This document shows positions 43,617-61,189 of a DNA stretch of 64,000 bases, piece after piece. Location: NCBI GenBank assembly GCA_947172415.1, contig OX359200.1:2234501-2298500 (forward strand), given 5' to 3'. A program made the position numbers and the translations under genes. The stretch's first letter is position 1, and each line of letters starts with the position of its first letter. The DNA is from Chondrosia reniformis. Its lineage: Eukaryota > Porifera > Demospongiae > Chondrillida > Chondrillidae. The notes under the pieces were generated by a model. That model saw only the letters and a list, made by a program, of their open reading frames with translations, was not told where the DNA came from and did no database searches.

Positions 43617-46504
43617 ATGCCTCAAAAACCGAACAAAATTGCCGTGAAATGGTTGGAATCAAAGGATGCTGGGAAGACACATCGAGTAAATGTTAAGCAT
43701 ATTGTAGGAAAGCGTGAGGATATTCAAGAAGGAGCCGAGATCGTCCTAAAACTCAATATGCAACGATATCGTGGAAAGGTTGTCGATCTTCTCGATTTCG
43801 TTCCCCCTATGAACCCATTGCTGCGAAAGAAGTTAAGGCCTTCAAAAGAAAATAAGAAAACTCGACAGAAAAGGAAGCAAACAGAGGTTTGTTTAGTTTT
43901 TATATTGCCAAAAACCTAACGCCTACGCGAGTATATACATGTATCTGCTCAAACCTATTCTTCATCTTCTCCTTCTTTAAGAACCTCTGGTTAGGAAATA
44001 ACTCACCAGCAAGCTCAGGCAGTGAAAATGACTTGGACTTGAGTTGCAGTATGCTTGATATTCCAGAAGTAGAAAAGGACAGCAACAGAATTAGAACACC
44101 ACTCAAGGAGATGACAAATAATAACGTAACACCAAAGATATCCAGCTGCAGCCCTCCATCTCGATCTTCTGATGCCCCCCAGCTCCAGCAGTCTTTTGCA
44201 GCCCCACTCCACTGCAGCAGCCGTTATTTATCAAATGCAACCTATCTACAGCAGTCATCTACTGGTCATTACCAAGGACCACCAGGGCAACAAATAATTT
44301 GGTAGTTTTAGCCGGTTCAATTCTCTTGCTAGCCTAGGCCTGGTGGCTTTTGGTTGGATAGCATTCATTGCAATGAGGACTTCTTCATCAGTGAACACAG
44401 AAGAACCAAGTTGGGTATTGCTGGAATTCAGGGATTGATCAAGAGATGTGTCTAAGGGAAGATCTTCAGCAGTTTGTTTTAGTTTCAGTTGATTCTCTAA
44501 AATGGCAACCTTTTTATGAAGTCTTTGCATTTCCTCCTGGTATGCTTTTCTCTGCACTTTCCATTCTTCTTGGAAGCTCTGCCTCATTTCCCCTATCTTC
44601 TCAATCACAAAATCCATGACATCCTCTGTGACCTTTTCCACGATAATTGAGTCAGCCATGGTCATAGATTGGAAAGCTGTGTTATTCCTAAGGATACCAT
44701 TTCTTATGTCTTCTAATGGCCGAGCATCTGTTACAATGTTGTTCATAGGTACACTGAATAAGTCTTCAAAGGAGATGTCCTCCCTATCTTGATCTTTCCT
44801 GTTAATAGCAGTGGAATTGCCTATCATTTCTTGAACATCTTCATGTTCCTTTTCTAATTGGCCATGGCCTTCCTGTGGCTTCCAGCCTTTGCCATTCCTA
44901 GGGATATCATTTGTTATATCTTCTAATGGCAGAGCATCTGTTACAGTGTTGTTCATAGGTATACGGAATAAGTCTTCTTAGGAGATGTCCTCCCTATCTT
45001 GATCTTTCCAGTTAATAGCAGTGGAATTGCCTTGCTTTTCTTGAACATCTTCATGTTCCTTTTCTAATTGTCCTTCCTGTGACTTCCAGCCTTTGCTTAT
45101 ACTTAAAAATTGCTGCAACATCAAATGACAAGTACATAAGTTATAACGTTGTAGGCACGTACGTATAAGGTATATATTTGCGTAGTTATATATACTGTAT
45201 ATAAAGGTTAGTAAAAACGCTTTGTGGGTATGCCTAGGCATGCGAATTGTGTGTATATTGTGTGTAAAATCTGTCACATATTATAAACTAACTGGTATTT
45301 CCTTCTTCAGTCGTTTTTTATCGATGAGCTTCTCTTTGTAGTAGGATTGTTTTCGATTTCATTCTCGGCTATCTTCCTTTTCGATTTTCGATTACCGAGC
45401 AACGAATCCTGTGCTCCCACAATCCCTCCTGTTTGTCCAGCATGAGTGCCTTAAACTTCTTCAGCTCCACAATTTGGCCAAGTTTGAAAGGGGGCTTAGC
45501 ATTGGTGTTGTGCCTGTTTATATCATACACGACTCCGTCAAACTTTCCCCCAATCCATTTTACAGCGATCCAGTTCTCTATTCTCTTTGCCACATTAAGT
45601 CTTGCTTTCTCTTGATTCTATAATGTAATACTTCTCGAATGAATGCGCGATAAATATTTTACACCTATTCATAGCTGTTAGCACTTTTAAAAGCCTGTCA
45701 GGCACTCGCAACTATCCCTCTTTAACTTCACGCTTCGATTACCACTCATTGCCACTCTTTTCATCGAGTGCCACGCTCTAAAATCTCGCGAGTGCAGGCG
45801 TTTCTTTTGGCCCGTACCGTATACAGCCATCTAACCACAACTGTCAAGGACAGCAACTGCAACATCCTTTGATTTCTCCATGTCTAGAGCCATCATCTAA
45901 CTTTTCTCATGAACAGCTTTCATTCCACACCCCATATCTACTTCAGCAGATGTCAAGCTTCCATCCAGGACAACAATCATTGTATAACCCCTATTTACTT
46001 CAGCCAACACCTTATGGCAACTATCAAGGACAACTATTTCAACAGCCTTCTATTTAATCATTCTCTCCAAAGCCATCATCATACCATCAGCAGAGGCCTC
46101 CACTTTCCCCTTACACAAGTCAGATCCAGTATCCTTTCCAATCTGCCTCTTGTACTTCCACAGCTAATTCCATCAACAATTCCAATCCAGTAGTTCAAGA
46201 TGATGATGATGATGATGATTGGATAGATTTTGAACAAGTGTTTGATGACTATTACCTTGGGCCCCCGTATAAGTTTCACCAAAAGGTCATAGATGACTGT
46301 TACAACAAAGCAAATTCGAAGCAGAATCTTGCTGTTCAGTTAGTGAAGACCTGTTACTCCAAAAGAGAAAGGGCAACATCCAACTGTGCAGGAGATCACC
46401 GTTATGGTAAGAAGAAGCTCTTTCCAAATCGGATGAAGGCTGTAAAGAATGCCATTTACACAATGCATCCCATTCGGACAGGAGAGGTGGAAAAAGATGT
46501 GTGA
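43617..46504 (+). CDS. BEN-domain protein gene
   Basis: Exon 43617-43886 encodes a compact N-terminal module (NKIAVKWLESKDAGKTHRVN, then EGAEIVLKLNMQRYRGKVVD), followed by a basic Lys/Arg tail. An intron 43887-43981 joins in phase 0 to 43982-44305 (NLWLGNNSPASSGSENDLDL, then Ser/Pro/Gln-rich). After a 1.5-kb gap, 45850-46504 gives a Gln/Pro/Tyr-rich linker, an Asp run (GAT repeat) and a C-terminal BEN domain: NLAVQLVKTCYSKRERATSN C, then KKLFPNRMKAVKNAIYTMHP. BEN domains are DNA/protein-binding modules of chromatin regulators and mobile or viral proteins (known). The linker is crossed by one frame change near 46055, so it is either spliced there or broken. The gap contains an antisense gene. 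Confidence 0.6.
44255..45593 (-). pseudogene. coiled-coil gene with IAVKW module, nested antisense in the BEN gene
   Basis: Exon 45593-45396 starts MAKRIENWIAVKWIGGKFDG, a module similar to the start of the BEN-domain gene. It splices in phase 0 (donor GTAATC, acceptor TTGCAG) to 45112, reading QFLSISKGWKSQEG and an acidic stretch to a TAA at 44978. The same 170-bp unit is repeated next to it (44956 on) with TTT at the TAA position; the frame then runs through a coiled coil (residues like EKIGEMRQSFQEEWKVQRKA) to a stop at 44255. So one nonsense codon separates an otherwise continuous gene. Its 3' end overlaps the second exon of the opposite gene by 51 bp. No BEN domain is seen in it. Confidence 0.55.
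45782..45791. promoter_or_regulatory. TCTCGCGAG palindrome upstream of the antisense gene
   Basis: TCTCGCGAGT lies about 190 bp upstream of the - strand start codon at 45593. It differs by one base from TCTCGCGAGA, the known target of the BEN protein BANP. A regulatory role is inference. Confidence 0.3.
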
Positions 46505-46779
46505 AAAGTCTACAGGATAGATAGTAGCTTCCGTCACTTTAATCGTGCGAAAGTCATATATACAGTTACATGTACGTATATCTAATAATTTACATATAAA
46601 ATATATATGGTTTTAGAAATAGTAATGGTTGTACAGAATTTATTAGTTATGATAAAATGACTAATTGTATGCATGGCAATGTTAAGTTACTCACCTGTAA
46701 TTCCTCCTTCCTTTTCAAGAATCTTAGGCAGAACATGGTGGGTATGTGCAATATATCGTGCACACTTCTCTTTGGTCAT

Positions 46780-47705
46780 TCTTTGTTTCCAAAAAGCCCT
46801 ATTCCTTCCACTAGTTCCTTTCTTAGACAGTGGTTTTACATGCCTTGCTATGAAATACGTAAGCTCTCTCCATACTTGCTCTATTGGTTGACATCTGCAC
46901 TGCTAGCTGGGGTGGGCCACCAATTAATTCCTTTCTCCTGGTAGAAAGTCTTTGCCAATCGACTGGTGTGTTTTGGGTCATTGTCCTGCATAATTCTATA
47001 TGAGGAACCTTGAAATTTCTTTTCAATAAAAGGAAGAAGGAAGTCATTCAAGATCTTGACATAGAGGGATGCATCCATCGTCTGATCGAAGATGCAGATG
47101 TTAGTTGCTCCCTTCATAGAGATGCCTGCCCAAACATGTACTTTTAACATATACTTTGCTTGAGGTTTTAATGTCCTTTCTCTTCCTATTTTAACTCTGA
47201 TTGTTTGGCAGTGTCTTCGCAGTTGAATAGATGATTCATCTGTCCAGATCACATTGGCAAAGGTGTCATTAGTCTCTATGCACATCTTAGCAAATGCTAG
47301 TCACTTGATTTTGTTGGCATCTGAAATCATTGGTCCAAATCTTGTCCTTACTACTGCCCACTTCAAGTTTAAGCGTAAATATCTCTGGATGGTAGAAGAA
47401 GAGACTTCAGTTGCAAATTTTCTAGCTACTAATCGTTGTAGTTCGATCCAAGTTATTTCGTCATCATCTTCTAGTTGTAGTTCCATGAAAGCAGCTATAT
47501 TCGTTGAGATTTTTGATGATCTTCCACTCCTATTTTTGTCTTCAAGACTGCAGTGCAATTGCCAACGATATATCCATTTTCTTATCGTATCCCGTGTTGT
47601 TTCTTTTCCTTCCGCCCTTAATATCTTGACGATAGATGTTACATTTTCTCCATCGATCCACAAACGAATGATTCGCTCTCTGAAATAGGAGGATAACATA
47701 GACAT
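46780..47705 (-). pseudogene. Tc1/mariner-type transposase, inactive
   Basis: The N-terminal helix-turn-helix half (47705-47301) ends at a TGA after SDANKIK. The frame resumes at once with the catalytic half (47285-46881): IWTDESS (first Asp), YRIMQDNDPKHTS (second Asp). A one-base frameshift near 46885 shifts into PIEQVWREL, which supplies the Glu. So one nonsense codon and one frameshift break a D-D-E transposase. The 3' end converges on the BEN-domain gene ending at 46504. TIRs were not identified with certainty. Confidence 0.85.
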
Positions 47706-56319: not shown

Positions 56320-57655
56320 GGGAAAAGATGAGAAATTTAGGTGTTATTGGAAAACTGTTGAAGACCATACAAGCTACGTACACAAATGTAAGATACACAA
56401 TTAAAGTTAACGAACTATTTACAGATTACTTTAAAGTAGATCAAGGTGTTAAGCAGGGATGCCGGCCCTCTCACCAACTCTATTTATAAATGATTTGGTA
56501 CTAGATATTAGCAAGGCAGGAGTTGGCTTGAGCTTAGAAACAGATAATGCGTGTAGCCTACTCTGTGCTGATGATGTCACTTTATGTGCAAATTCAGAAA
56601 AAGATCTACAGACCCTCTTAGATGTACTCAATTCTTGGTACAATAAATGGATACTTGAGATTAACCTAAATAAGACAAAACTTATCCACTTTGGACCAAT
56701 AAACCATAAATTATCAAAGTACACTTTCTAATAGGTAACCATAAGATAGACTATGCAACAGAATATACATATCTTGGGTTTACTTTCAATCATCATTAAC
56801 TTGGAAGAAATCAATTGACCTGAAAGCTAAGAGAGCCTCAAAGGCTGCCCAATATTTAATGGTTAAATCAAGAGCTTCTGGAACTTTTTTGTATCGTCTT
56901 TTTACACACTTTTATAAAGCACTACTGATGAGCATCGTCGAATACAGTTCACATGCATGGGGTTTAAGAGAGTATAAGTGTTTAGAACATATCCACACCA
57001 ACCTAATGAGAGCATTCCTTGGTTTGGGTAGGACTGCACCTATTGCAGGTCTTAGTGGGGAGATGAACTGGAGACCTTTGCACTGGCTCACTAAATCGAT
57101 TATCTTTAAATATTGGTATCACATTAATAATCTACCAAATACTCTTTTACCTACTACTACATCTTTCTAAACTTAACTTAAAGGACAGTTGGTACTCAAA
57201 CCTCCATAGTGTACTCCAAGATTTATCAGTACAGAATCATAATTATTCCTACTCTAACATAGATGTCCCCTTTATTAATATATAAACAGCTAGGCCTTTA
57301 TCAAAGATACACTACAGAAAATCAATAATTCAGGATTAAAGGAATGGAATAAGGATGTAAATAGAATAGAAATCAATAGTCAGTCTGGTGGTAGGTTGGC
57401 TCTTTACAGACTCTTGAAAGGATGCCCCACTATGGAGGAGTATGTGGTGATGGGAGAGGTTGACAATAGGAGAGTTCTGGCATCTCTGAGGTGTGGATAC
57501 CTGCAACTCCAAGTAGAACTTGGTAGAATCCAACATCCTAAGGTGCCACTGGAGGACTGGGTCTGTAGACTGTGCAACCTTAGTGAGATTGAGGATACCG
57601 CACACTTTTTGATCACATGTCCACTTTTAACAAACTTTGATGTAAGTTTGCATTA
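56320..57655 (+). pseudogene. third LINE fragment: RT palm to C-terminal zinc motif
   Basis: VDQGVKQGCRPSPTLFINDL, then LLCADDVTLCANSEKDLQTL (Y/CADD catalytic box), then KWILEINLNKTKLIHFGP. Further frames give YSSHAWGLREYKCLEHIHTN (56860-57168) and CRLCNLSEIEDTAHFLITCP (57540-57630), the C-terminal Cys/His motif of many LINEs. Frameshifts near 56730 and 57170. It follows a gypsy integrase fragment with no recognisable 5' end. Confidence 0.8.
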
Positions 57656-57659
57656 ACTA

Positions 57660-57988
57660 TATATCACCCCCACTTCTTTTCTTTAACACCCTTGCAAAAG
57701 TGCCTTTTTACTCTATCATATCCTAGAAAACAAATCACCAATCTTATTTATGATATGTATTTAACCCTTTATCAGCCGATAGCCACAATAGTGGCTCGAA
57801 ATAGTTTAGACCATTAACAGCCACAAAGTTTAAAAATCATCCAATCATTTTAAATTTTTTATGAATCGATAGAATTACGATTGTTTAAGCTTCGTATGAA
57901 ATTATACCACAGTATATGCATATTAGAAAGGACAGGATGATATAGGCCTAACATATAATGCAAATGTAACGAAAAACACAGGATATAT
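57660..57988. other. no gene recognised
   Basis: AT-rich spacer between the LINE fragment and the TIR element. Confidence 0.4.
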
Positions 57989-58015
57989 GGTACATGTCAC
58001 AAGTAACTTTACGAA

Positions 58016-58305
58016 TTCCGCGGATCTGCCACGTAGGTAATCCGCGGCTCTTCTGCGGAATCCTCGCAGAATATCCGCAGATTCCTCCAAGGGTTCCGCG
58101 GAATCGTCGAAGGGCATCTGCGGAATCGTCAAAAAGCATCCGCGGAATCGTCGAAGGGCATCTGCGGAATCGTCAAAAGGCATCCGAGGAATAGTCAAAA
58201 TCGTCAAACGGCATCCGCGGAATTGTCAAAGGGTAGTTGTGAAATCGTCGCAGGGTTACTGTAGCCGTGGAATCATCGAAAGGTAGCCTAGAATAGTCGA
58301 ACGAT
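58016..58305. repeat. left subterminal array, about 22-bp units
   Basis: Units of the form CATCCGCGGAATCGTCGAAG GG / CATCTGCGGAATCGTCAAAA AG repeat about ten times with drift. CCGCGG is a perfect palindrome. The - strand translation gives a repeated FDDSADALRRFRG-like peptide, which I treat as a by-product. Confidence 0.85.
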
Positions 58306-58307
58306 AG

Positions 58308-58430
58308 TTGTTTAACCTGTTTAACAGCCCAAAAGGTCAAGTGTCACATACGGGGGGCATAGTTGTGGTCAACCAATGTTTATTTAATGCGCAATATTTG
58401 TTTAACAGCGCAAAAGGTCAAGTGTCACCT
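58308..58430. repeat. 33-bp direct repeat
   Basis: TGTTTAACAGCCCAAAAGGT CAAGTGTCAC (58318) recurs at 58399 with one change (GCGC for GCCC). It may mark an old transposon end. Confidence 0.7.
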
Positions 58431-58512
58431 GGAAAACAATTAGAATCAATTAGGCATGTACAAGTAATAACAAACAAAACAAGAATAGTCACTGCAATAA
58501 AAAAGAAATAGT

Positions 58513-59592
58513 TTAATGCCCTGAAGGGGCTCCCTCTACTTGCACTACCACAGGCATCACCTTCTGCAGGTGATCAATGTAGCGCATACATACTTCAGGG
58601 GTAAGTGTGGACCAGTACTTTCTGATACCTTCTTTCAACTCACCAAGATTTTTTGGCTTGAGCTTGTCTCTGATGAAGTTCTTCATCGACCCCCACACCA
58701 ATTCTATGGGGTTAAGGTCTGGGGACTCTGCTGGACTCTTCCACCAGTTCACTCCATTGGCTTCAAAGTAACGCTGAATATATTTGTTTGTGTGCTTAGG
58801 ATCATTGTCCTGGTACAGCCGATGACCATGTGGGTACATCTCTTTCAGGAATGGCACGAGAGAGGCTGACAAGATGTCCGAGTACCTGGTGGCATTCATG
58901 ATCCCGCTAAACATCAAAATTTGAGTGGCACCTTTCTTCAATATTCCAGCCCACACATATCTTCGGTGAGTGTTTGTGTTTGTACTTCAGTTTTCTGGGC
59001 ATATTCTTCTTCCGGAAGCACTTCCTCCGATGGCACTCCAATTGGAAGCACTCCAATTGGAAAGTGGACTCATCTGTGAAAATGACATCATCAAATTTCT
59101 CTTTCTCAGCGATGAGTTTGTACACCAGTCAAGCCTCTTCTGTTTGTTGGCATCCCTAATTGCCTGACAGTATCTCGCTGTTGTAAATGTCCATCCGAGC
59201 TCATTACGGACCCTTGCTATGGTTCTTTCTCAATATTGGACTTTCTCCACTCCAAATTTTTTGATGAGTATGTCCTTCAGATCTGAAGCAGTCAATTCAT
59301 CATTGTCCACCATGGCATCATCGATACACCGAGAGTGGCTTTCAGGCACTTTCACAGGGACCCCACTTTTTGGACAGTCTCCTGTGCTCTTGGTTAAATG
59401 CCATCTTGAAATTGTATTGCTAATCGTCGGAGAAGTGGTGATTATCCCCTCCAAGGCCAGGATTCTTCTCATCTGTGCCAATGTCCATTTACCTTCACAC
59501 TGGGTCCAAAGGGCTACTACTCTTCCTCTTTGATATTCATTCAAAGGCATCTTAATGGTCAAAGTCGCAAAAGGCACACACTGAAAAAACAA
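58513..59592 (-). pseudogene. Tc1/mariner-type transposase, inactive
   Basis: N-terminal helix-turn-helix part 59592-59230 (EYQRGRVVALWTQCEGKWTL) ends in a stop. The frame then moves through NELGWTFTTARYCQAIRDA to VIFTDESTFQLECFQLEC (first Asp, with a small internal duplication) and MWAGILKKGATQIL. It finishes intact with RLYQDNDPKHTNKYIQ and SPDLNPIELVWGSM (second Asp and Glu). At least one nonsense codon and two frameshifts. It differs clearly from the transposase at 46780-47705, so the two are separate families. Confidence 0.87.
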
Positions 59593-59620
59593 GATATCTT
59601 ATATGCTGGGGATAATCTGA

Positions 59621-60370
59621 AGTGATCGATGTGATCAGGCACCAGCATCACCTGCCACTACCAGGAATGAGCCTGAAGAGCAGTTTACTTTTGAACTGGC
59701 AGCTCCAGCTCCTTCAACTTCCACAGATTCGCGTGCACCCGAAGGACAGCAGGATGATAGGTTTTATACTATCTTGCAGAAGCTGGACAGCTTGTCAGAG
59801 AAGTTGGACATTTTGTCAGACACGGTGTCTGGAGTTGAAGCGCGACTGGTGTGCCGTCTTCTGACGTTAGAGGAGAAAGTGTACACTCTGCAGCCTCCAG
59901 TAAGCGAGTATCCACTGCTACAGGAAACGCCTATGCATGCACCCCCCATGGAGATGGCGACACCAGTGTCTCCTTACTTCTGGCAAGAAATTCCCCCGAC
60001 ACACCTGGAGTCTCCTCATGATATGCCTCTGCAAGACATTACGAGTCAGATGAACGAGGTAGGAGACGTATGCATCCAACCAGAAGACATCAGTTCTGCC
60101 CTACAAGCTTGCAGGTCAAGTAGAAACCTGGCTGCAAAGCTTGCAGCCAGAATGTTCCCGCCACGAGAGCATGTTGGAAGCAACTGCAGAGGAGTCCTGG
60201 GCAAGAAAGCCTTAAACGGCCCGAAAATCAAAGCTATCTATGCTGCGTGCATGCAGCATTTCCCTCTGCAACGGCTGGAGTCGGCAACTATGTCGGTGAA
60301 GGAAATGAGGTGCGCGATTGACGAAGTCTGCCGCAAGACAAAGCCTCCAGAAGAAATAGAAAATTGTTAA
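59621..60370 (+). CDS. BEN-domain protein ORF, first exon not found
   Basis: Open for 249 codons after an in-frame TGA, with no ATG near the start, so a 5' exon or acceptor near 59610 is likely. Order: Ala/Pro/Ser/Thr/Glu-rich leader, coiled coil with heptad leucines (ILQKLDSLSEKLDILSDTVS GVE), Pro/Met-rich linker, then a BEN domain: RNLAAKLAARMFPPREHVGS NC, RGVLGKKALNGPKIKAIYAA. The C-terminal tail ends EEIENC. No internal stop or frameshift, unlike the transposase next to it, which may mean it was kept under selection longer. It starts 29 bp from the divergent transposase ORF. The domain resembles that of the gene at 43617-46504, but the N-terminal parts differ. Confidence 0.72.
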   Translation, partial: SDRCDQAPASPATTRNEPEEQFTFELAAPAPSTSTDSRAPEGQQDDRFYTILQKLDSLSEKLDILSDTVSGVEARLVCRLLTLEEKVYTLQPPVSEYPLLQETPMHAPPMEMATPVSPYFWQEIPPTHLESPHDMPLQDITSQMNEVGDVCIQPEDISSALQACRSSRNLAAKLAARMFPPREHVGSNCRGVLGKKALNGPKIKAIYAACMQHFPLQRLESATMSVKEMRCAIDEVCRKTKPPEEIENC

Positions 60371-60554
60371 CTTTTAACCTTTGTTACAATTGTTCTATTG
60401 TTACTATTATTAATATTACTATTATAATAATTAATCGTTAATTAAACGTTGTTGCTCGTTATTAAACGTTATTGTTTGTGGAAATGCTTGGCTTAGACCG
60501 CGTAGTGTGCAGATACGTACCAGTACAAACCTTGTGCGCAATACGGCAGAGGCG

Positions 60555-60770
60555 TTAACATTCCGCGGATAAGGACAAAGACGATCCGCGGACAGCGAAG
60601 ACGTTCCACGGAAAGGCAAGAGACATTCCACGGAAAGGCTAGACATTCCGCGGAAATAGCACGGTAACACCGAGGTTAGCTGCGCGGATTCCATGCGGAA
60701 TCCGTACGGAATCTGCACGGAATTTCTGCAAAATTCGTCGGATTTTGTAAAGTTTCTTGTGACATGTACC
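60555..60770. repeat. right subterminal array and TIR
   Basis: Repeated TTCCGCGGA / TCCACGGAAAGGCAAGA units, then GCGGATTCC and its near-inverse, then the TIR. Three CCGCGG sites are present, against five in the left array. Confidence 0.75.
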
Positions 60771-61189
60771 GTACGGTTGTTTATAAGAGAATACAATGGA
60801 AACAAAATGGCCGTCTTGAGGCAGGCATATGGATTTATTAAGCTCATTTTTAACATTCCACCCCTCCATATGTGTCACAAAGTATATAGTATATTGACTT
60901 TATTGTTATATTTCTGCTTTAGAAATCACGGATAGCTACAAATTTGAACAACATATGGGAAATTTACAAGTCAAAAGGATCAAAATGATACCTAATATGC
61001 AGCAAAACCTATACCTTCACTGGTTACCACAAATAGGACTTCAGTCCCCCAGCCTAGTAGACAATTGTCACTTGGTTGGTTGGCGTAATTATCCAGTGTT
61101 GTATATTATTTGCAACAATAGCCTACCACAGGCTCAAGTGCAATAATCTCCCCTTTTCATGTATCCATTATGTACATATGTAGGTTGAT
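60771..61189. other. no gene recognised
   Basis: A 63-codon + frame at 60955-61146 (MGNLQVKRIKMIPNMQQNLY...) just upstream of the transposase-like exons could be an earlier exon of that gene; this is not supported further. Confidence 0.35.

Follow-up and report, generated by a model that had tools for sequence, protein, structure and literature searches.

Tc1/mariner elements serve as the textbook example of one-gene transposons, and gene-delivery tools are built on them. In the accounts available, elements of the Tc1 family usually contain a single ORF (PMC8533490), and Tc1/mariner elements are generally described as lacking accessory proteins (PMC12242761). The same paper describes the TBE elements of Oxytricha as Tc1/mariner elements with three ORFs, a transposase plus accessory ORFs; a 57-kDa zinc-finger/kinase protein and a 22-kDa protein are listed as accessories, and its account names no BEN domain among them (PMC12242761). 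Most candidates among PIF/Harbinger, NuwaI and NuwaII are reported to have two ORFs, encoding a DDE transposase and a separate Myb/SANT DNA-binding protein, and the function of the PIF/Harbinger partner was called unknown in 2015 (PMC4482050).

The elements described here, from the sponge Chondrosia reniformis, share a TA target-site duplication, terminal inverted repeats (TIRs) and a DD34E transposase with the Tc1 family (DD34E) of the IS630-Tc1-mariner group, of which Sleeping Beauty is an example, but they add a BEN protein and, in one family (family A), arrays of short sites in the ends. Since a single ORF is typical rather than defining for Tc1, we keep the sponge lineage as a Tc1 variant. 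Like Oxytricha TBE, it combines a Tc1/mariner transposase with an accessory ORF, although TBE is a ciliate element for which no BEN protein is named. PIF/Harbinger offers the nearest known logic, but belongs to another superfamily, generates a TWA duplication and uses a Myb rather than a BEN protein. In En/Spm (CACTA) elements, with their TnpA/TnpD pair, short subterminal repeats close to either end are the binding sites of a second protein; these plant elements differ in having an unrelated transposase and binding protein and a 3-bp duplication. Animal BEND3 and BANP are BEN relatives by profile, but they are host regulators and not transposon genes. Our search of published papers gave no description of BEN-bearing Tc1 elements among the papers listed, and the two papers that paired the BEN domain with transposon terms concern, by their titles, horizontal transfer into Lepidoptera. 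As far as these searches reach, the two-gene Tc1 lineage is previously undescribed, which falls short of establishing its absence from print. The BEN profile found no relatives in viral contigs or in bacterial and archaeal genome contigs, and one transposase of the lineage found none in viral contigs.

The stretch of DNA under study (the window, 64 kb, C12:2234501-2298500) was compared with the host genome of 117,379,552 bp in 15 contigs. A single transposon of 2,784 bp spans window positions 57988-60771, with TA duplications and TIRs at its borders (Table 1). A preliminary description made from the sequence alone had placed the element at 57989..60770 with a 24-bp TIR pair containing one mismatch; that pair is correct and the element is there, but its true extent is one base greater on either side. 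A repeat scan returned the full inverted pair at 57986-58020 and 60739-60773 (35 nt, 89% complementary). The motif CCGCGG occurs eight times in the entire window (0.78 expected; a count of eight was reached in 0 of 100 shuffles), and all eight sites lie in the element ends, five left and three right, as had been claimed. To the left of the element, an ORF at 57396-57656 resembles what we take to be the tail of a reverse-transcriptase element.

Table 1 Features of the two-gene element in the window.
Feature	Position in window	Strand	Remarks
TA target-site duplication, left	57986..57987	.	One TA only in 3 of the 4 empty paralogous sites that were aligned
Left terminal inverted repeat	57988..58013	+	26 bp, 3 mismatches relative to the right one
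Left subterminal array	58017..58221	+	CCGCGG at 58018, 58042, 58096, 58140 and 58215, inside repeat units of ~22 bp
Transposase, C-terminal piece (DDE_3)	58513..58956	-	
Transposase, middle piece	58907..59125	-	Different frame, no Pfam match of its own
Transposase, N-terminal piece	59230..59592	-	Weak HTH_32, E = 0.019
Deletion scar	59593..59632	.	Intergenic region and BEN 5' end gone; alignment with five relatives
BEN protein ORF	59621..60370	+	5'-truncated, no start codon, 249 codons plus stop
BEN domain	60125..60337	+	Residues 169-239; Pfam score under cut-off, firm through the relatives' profile
Right subterminal array	60562..60654	+	CCGCGG at 60563, 60586 and 60648, plus two CCACGG variants
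Right terminal inverted repeat	60746..60771	-	26 bp
TA target-site duplication, right	60772..60773	.	

The target of the insertion was a copy of another repeat. When the flanks were joined (junction at query position 198), eight copies of this repeat gave matches that begin at position 1, run through the junction and stop at 248-254, and a further three spanned it in part; four copies were aligned at the junction itself, three having a single TA and one being diverged there. Both the transposase and the BEN gene are absent from these paralogous empty sites, and the single TA in unoccupied repeat copies is good evidence that one insertion brought both genes. Taken in isolation, the window copy would permit a Tc1 relic to have landed by chance in or beside a BEN gene. 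The repeat scan found no second TIR pair with TA duplication around the transposase alone, so the two-gene reading survives the objection, raised at the outset, of a Tc1 relic with its own inner ends. Chance nesting is refuted by the empty sites lacking either gene and by other loci that hold both genes within the same TIRs and TA duplications, and we assign it next to no probability.

The window copy is a decayed member of the two-gene Tc1-type lineage. Its minus-strand transposase matches DDE_3 (E = 7.7e-14), as do related transposases elsewhere. The open frame is split into at least three pieces, two TGA codons lie inside the match obtained in the genome search and, compared with five relatives, the middle piece carries a window-specific 15-bp insertion and frame-breaking gaps, confirming the broken transposase of the preliminary description. 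About 610 bp (~344 + 268 + 7 bp) that three or more of these relatives retain are missing around 59593-59632, and this deletion left the BEN ORF without its start and about 50 codons. A TGA precedes the frame, no ATG lies near its head, and the encoded protein lacks the N-terminal ~50 residues that three relatives (L025, L027 and L028) have. The 249-codon BEN ORF had been called intact and unbroken: the frame is open throughout, but the gene is 5'-truncated and its start codon is gone. Similarly, the reported 29-bp gap between the genes is present, but represents the deletion scar rather than native spacing; the start codons of the two genes lie 432 bp apart in L025 and 540 bp apart in L027.

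Genome searches with the left and right ends matched at least 34 and at least 48 places, respectively, some of which are fragments of one copy. We fetched 40 loci, a selection from all matches, of which 20 were chosen for a BEN match and 20 for an end match. We tabulated 31 copies with both TIRs (families A-D), and 26 of them are flanked by TA at either end; the exceptions are L056, L057, L061 and a duplicated pair in L060. The table does not include loci with no or one TIR, further partial copies in L058, or the L059 locus, a repeat of L058. TA flanks were seen at both ends of class E loci and at one end only in class F, and no perfect inverted repeats of at least 12 bp were found around the two class G/H loci read. 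The search proposed earlier for copies with the same TIR and array yielded, among others, five loci (L025-L029) that do carry BEN, contrary to the suggestion that TIR copies elsewhere might never carry a BEN ORF. In this family (family A), the transposase is open in L025, L026, L027 and L029 (341 aa), and the BEN protein is open in L025 and L027 (300-301 aa) and damaged in L026, L028 and L029. L025 and L027 thus hold an open DD34E transposase and an open BEN ORF between the same TIRs as the window element: a DD34E transposase and a protein ending in a BEN domain are encoded on opposite strands of a single element that has TIRs and a TA duplication. Full family A copies other than L028 differ by 1.7-4.1%, and L028 by 17-22%. 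In family B (L036, L037 and L040) the open transposase measures 338-339 aa and the BEN protein 321 aa, the latter being shortened in L039. The shorter members of family A (0.1-1.6 kb) retain the ends, but their length leaves no room for both genes; they resemble ordinary non-autonomous derivatives.

The residues D160, D244 and E279 are invariant in the nine transposases compared from families A, B and C, defining a DD34E triad. A profile of the transposase links it to Sleeping Beauty SB100X (E = 5.1e-28) and to NCBIfam IS630 (E = 3.2e-29). The window BEN protein alone matches Pfam BEN at E = 0.0075, under the curated cut-off; the domain call becomes firm because relatives were added, a 12-sequence profile matching BEND3 (E = 5.2e-11) and BANP (6e-6) in the PDB. 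The curated Pfam score is reached by classes E and F (L065, L066 and L067) and by 19 genome matches. L025 and L040 fall under it, A1 has 13 members of which 9 match with an E value no higher than 1, and the L027 protein gave no match up to E = 0.1. The second ORF of class G/H scores below threshold against Pfam BEN (E = 0.019 and 0.0099), with the match C-terminal as in the other classes, and matches BEN weakly by hhalign (probability 20%, E = 0.0011). BEN proteins of families A, B, C, E and F share a conserved N-terminal stretch of ~55 residues, with seven invariant columns in an alignment of seven sequences. Between this stretch and the BEN domain lie matches to coiled-coil families, and because these are low-scoring, oligomerization of the protein is only a guess.

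The gene pair extends well beyond the window element's family. The transposase search listed 125 matches, a lower bound because 119 of 312 candidates were scored; 49 matches cover at least 270 residues, and 29 of these are open (at least 330 codons, no stop). They were compared with a BEN set of 145 entries at 107 distinct places, with a neighbor limit of 3.5 kb. A BEN or BEN-like ORF was found within that distance of 28 of the 29 open related transposases and, under the looser rule of at least 270 matched residues, of 40 of the 49. The nine transposase matches for which no BEN was found within 3.5 kb include the open 339-codon C4:3020471. Each of the 28 neighbors is encoded on the strand opposite its transposase, with 19 pairs arranged tail-to-tail and 9 head-to-head; the nearest BEN entry came from a class A/E BEN query or the Pfam model in 21 pairs and from a class G query in 7, the latter being class G/H neighbors whose BEN match is weak. 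The chance of a BEN neighbor is about 0.6-0.7% per transposase, and the 28 pairs are not independent, because several are near-identical copies. Of the 19 Pfam BEN matches, in turn, 18 have a related transposase match no more than 3.5 kb away. A by-eye choice of 44 transposase matches gave 38 with BEN and the same 28 of 29 for open transposases. The proposed co-occurrence of the two genes is therefore borne out beyond the window family, and this pairing, together with the same-TIR copies carrying both genes, supports the idea of a two-gene transposon class.

Pooled pN/pS within family A is 0.41 for BEN and 0.40 for the transposase; between families it is 0.33 for BEN (BEN domain only, ~98 codons) and 0.26 for the transposase, with dS saturated. 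Two class E BEN copies give 0.40, and the family B BEN value of 1.43 says little, as no pair has more than two synonymous changes. On these values BEN looks to be under constraint. Distances between transposases and between BEN proteins correlate across eight families (r = 0.92, reached by 32 of 40,320 permutations) and across the six families with certain BEN (r = 0.987, reached by 3 of 720), and the two trees differ solely in the placement of E, F and G/H. By this comparison of eight families, the two genes remained paired as they diverged. Host genes are sometimes captured by transposons, and the decay of BEN in the window copy could be taken to indicate that the ORF is a captured host gene or a passenger without element function. 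One recent capture does not fit the co-divergence, the low BEN pN/pS and the presence of BEN beside 28 of 29 open transposases, and we reject host capture as very improbable.

In the outer 260 bp of two family A copies, CGCGGA occurs 17 times (L025) and 20 times (L027), against 0.8 and 1.0 expected from Markov resamples, and never in the interior; both strands were counted, and the palindrome TCCGCGGA therefore counts twice. Family D (L032) has six CGCGGA, one of the two CCGCGG sites of family C (L033) lies near an end, and no CCGCGG was found in families B (four tabulated copies), E and F. The CCGCGG arrays are thus a trait of the window element's family, with few or none in the others. Words enriched in the ends are TACGTA in B, TCCGCA and CCGAGG in C, GAGTAC and AGTACT in E, and CCTCGC and GAGGCC in F; they were picked from the top words without multiple-testing correction and, except in A, from one copy per family, and on this basis the families seem to have their own end motifs. 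We rejected CCGCGG as a universal BEN site because family B, with an intact BEN ORF, has none; a candidate BEN site would have to differ by family.

The ends of the window element are rich in CpG (observed/expected 1.57 and 1.58) compared with its middle (0.53) and the whole window (0.43), a pattern as expected of a CpG-methylated genome in which the ends are protected or selected. Across 20 family A copies, transitions at CpG exceed those at other C/G positions at the left end (0.114 versus 0.062) and the right end (0.083 versus 0.031), so that the ends do lose CpGs, and CCGCGG sites have lower values than the CpGs of the ends overall (0.067 left, 0.054 right). BANP and BEND3 are reported to recognize CGCG and to be repelled by its methylation (PMC11472053), and the NAC1 BEN domain to select ACATGT (PMC7764960), a word found in many family A TIRs. 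These parallels make it likely that BEN binds the element ends. The preliminary proposal that the CCGCGG arrays are BEN sites and BEN an accessory factor is plausible for family A, although the end motifs could instead be transposase sites.

We consider it somewhat more probable than its rivals together that these are two-gene Tc1-type transposons whose transposase acts at the TIRs and whose BEN protein is an element-specific end-binding factor. The transposase would cut and paste at the TIRs, while the BEN protein, perhaps as an oligomer, would bind repeated CpG-rich sites (putatively CCGCGG in family A) within about 260 bp of each end. Bound BEN would mark or pair the two ends for the transposase and may also sense or protect their methylation state, a logic analogous to that of other elements in which a second DNA-binding protein serves the transposase. 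Alternatively, BEN could be an element-encoded transcription or chromatin regulator (a repressor, autoregulator or anti-silencing factor) with the end arrays as its binding sites but no part in the cut-and-paste reaction. The BEN proteins described so far, in the accounts available, are mostly transcription or chromatin factors, the CpG-rich ends of the window element lie amid CpG-depleted sequence, and in head-to-head families one intergenic region is common to both genes. Tail-to-tail families (19 of the 28 pairs) lack a common upstream region, and family A sites lie at both ends, as end recognition predicts; neither point excludes regulation, which we regard as possible but clearly the less probable role.

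The near-universal BEN or BEN-like partner of open transposases suggests another way to recognize or regulate transposon ends, and an end-binding BEN factor offers a testable link between CpG recognition and transposition. A bolder scenario, which we put forward tentatively and think rather unlikely, is that an ancient sponge Tc1 lineage is obligately two-gene, with a BEN protein particular to each family and end motifs that likewise differ by family and mostly contain CpG. BEN would then read unmethylated CpG, tying transposition to the methylation of the element, and BEND3 and BANP may derive from such genes, which would make the lineage a possible source of an animal transcription-factor domain.

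Several further features were observed. A second, decayed BEN/Tc1 element, arranged tail-to-tail, lies at 46196-46555 (+) and 46785-47696 (-) of the window; its BEN match contains one stop and its transposase match four, and the tried motifs and an inverted-repeat scan revealed no TIRs around 46196-47696. The class E BEN protein (L065-L066; C2:3356800-3361200 and C1:5374300-5378800) contains tandem HHPVYPSTPS-like units that differ between copies. In the class F protein (L067; C2:7297500-7301600), the N-terminal stretch and the BEN domain occupy separate open frames, which could reflect an intron or a frameshift. Family B loci (L036-L040; C10:1542500-1549500, C3:7164000-7171500, C10:1422500-1430000 and C1:2099000-2106500) have similar frames just upstream of the transposase and the BEN gene, reading IFVHAFGHYESLRLEE and LFVHAFGRYESLRLEE in L040, which suggests an inverted repeat between the divergent genes. 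Finally, the copies in L058/L059 (C5:8.05 and 8.01 Mb) and L060 (C11:2.21 Mb) have identical short flanks and were therefore probably duplicated along with their surroundings rather than inserted separately.
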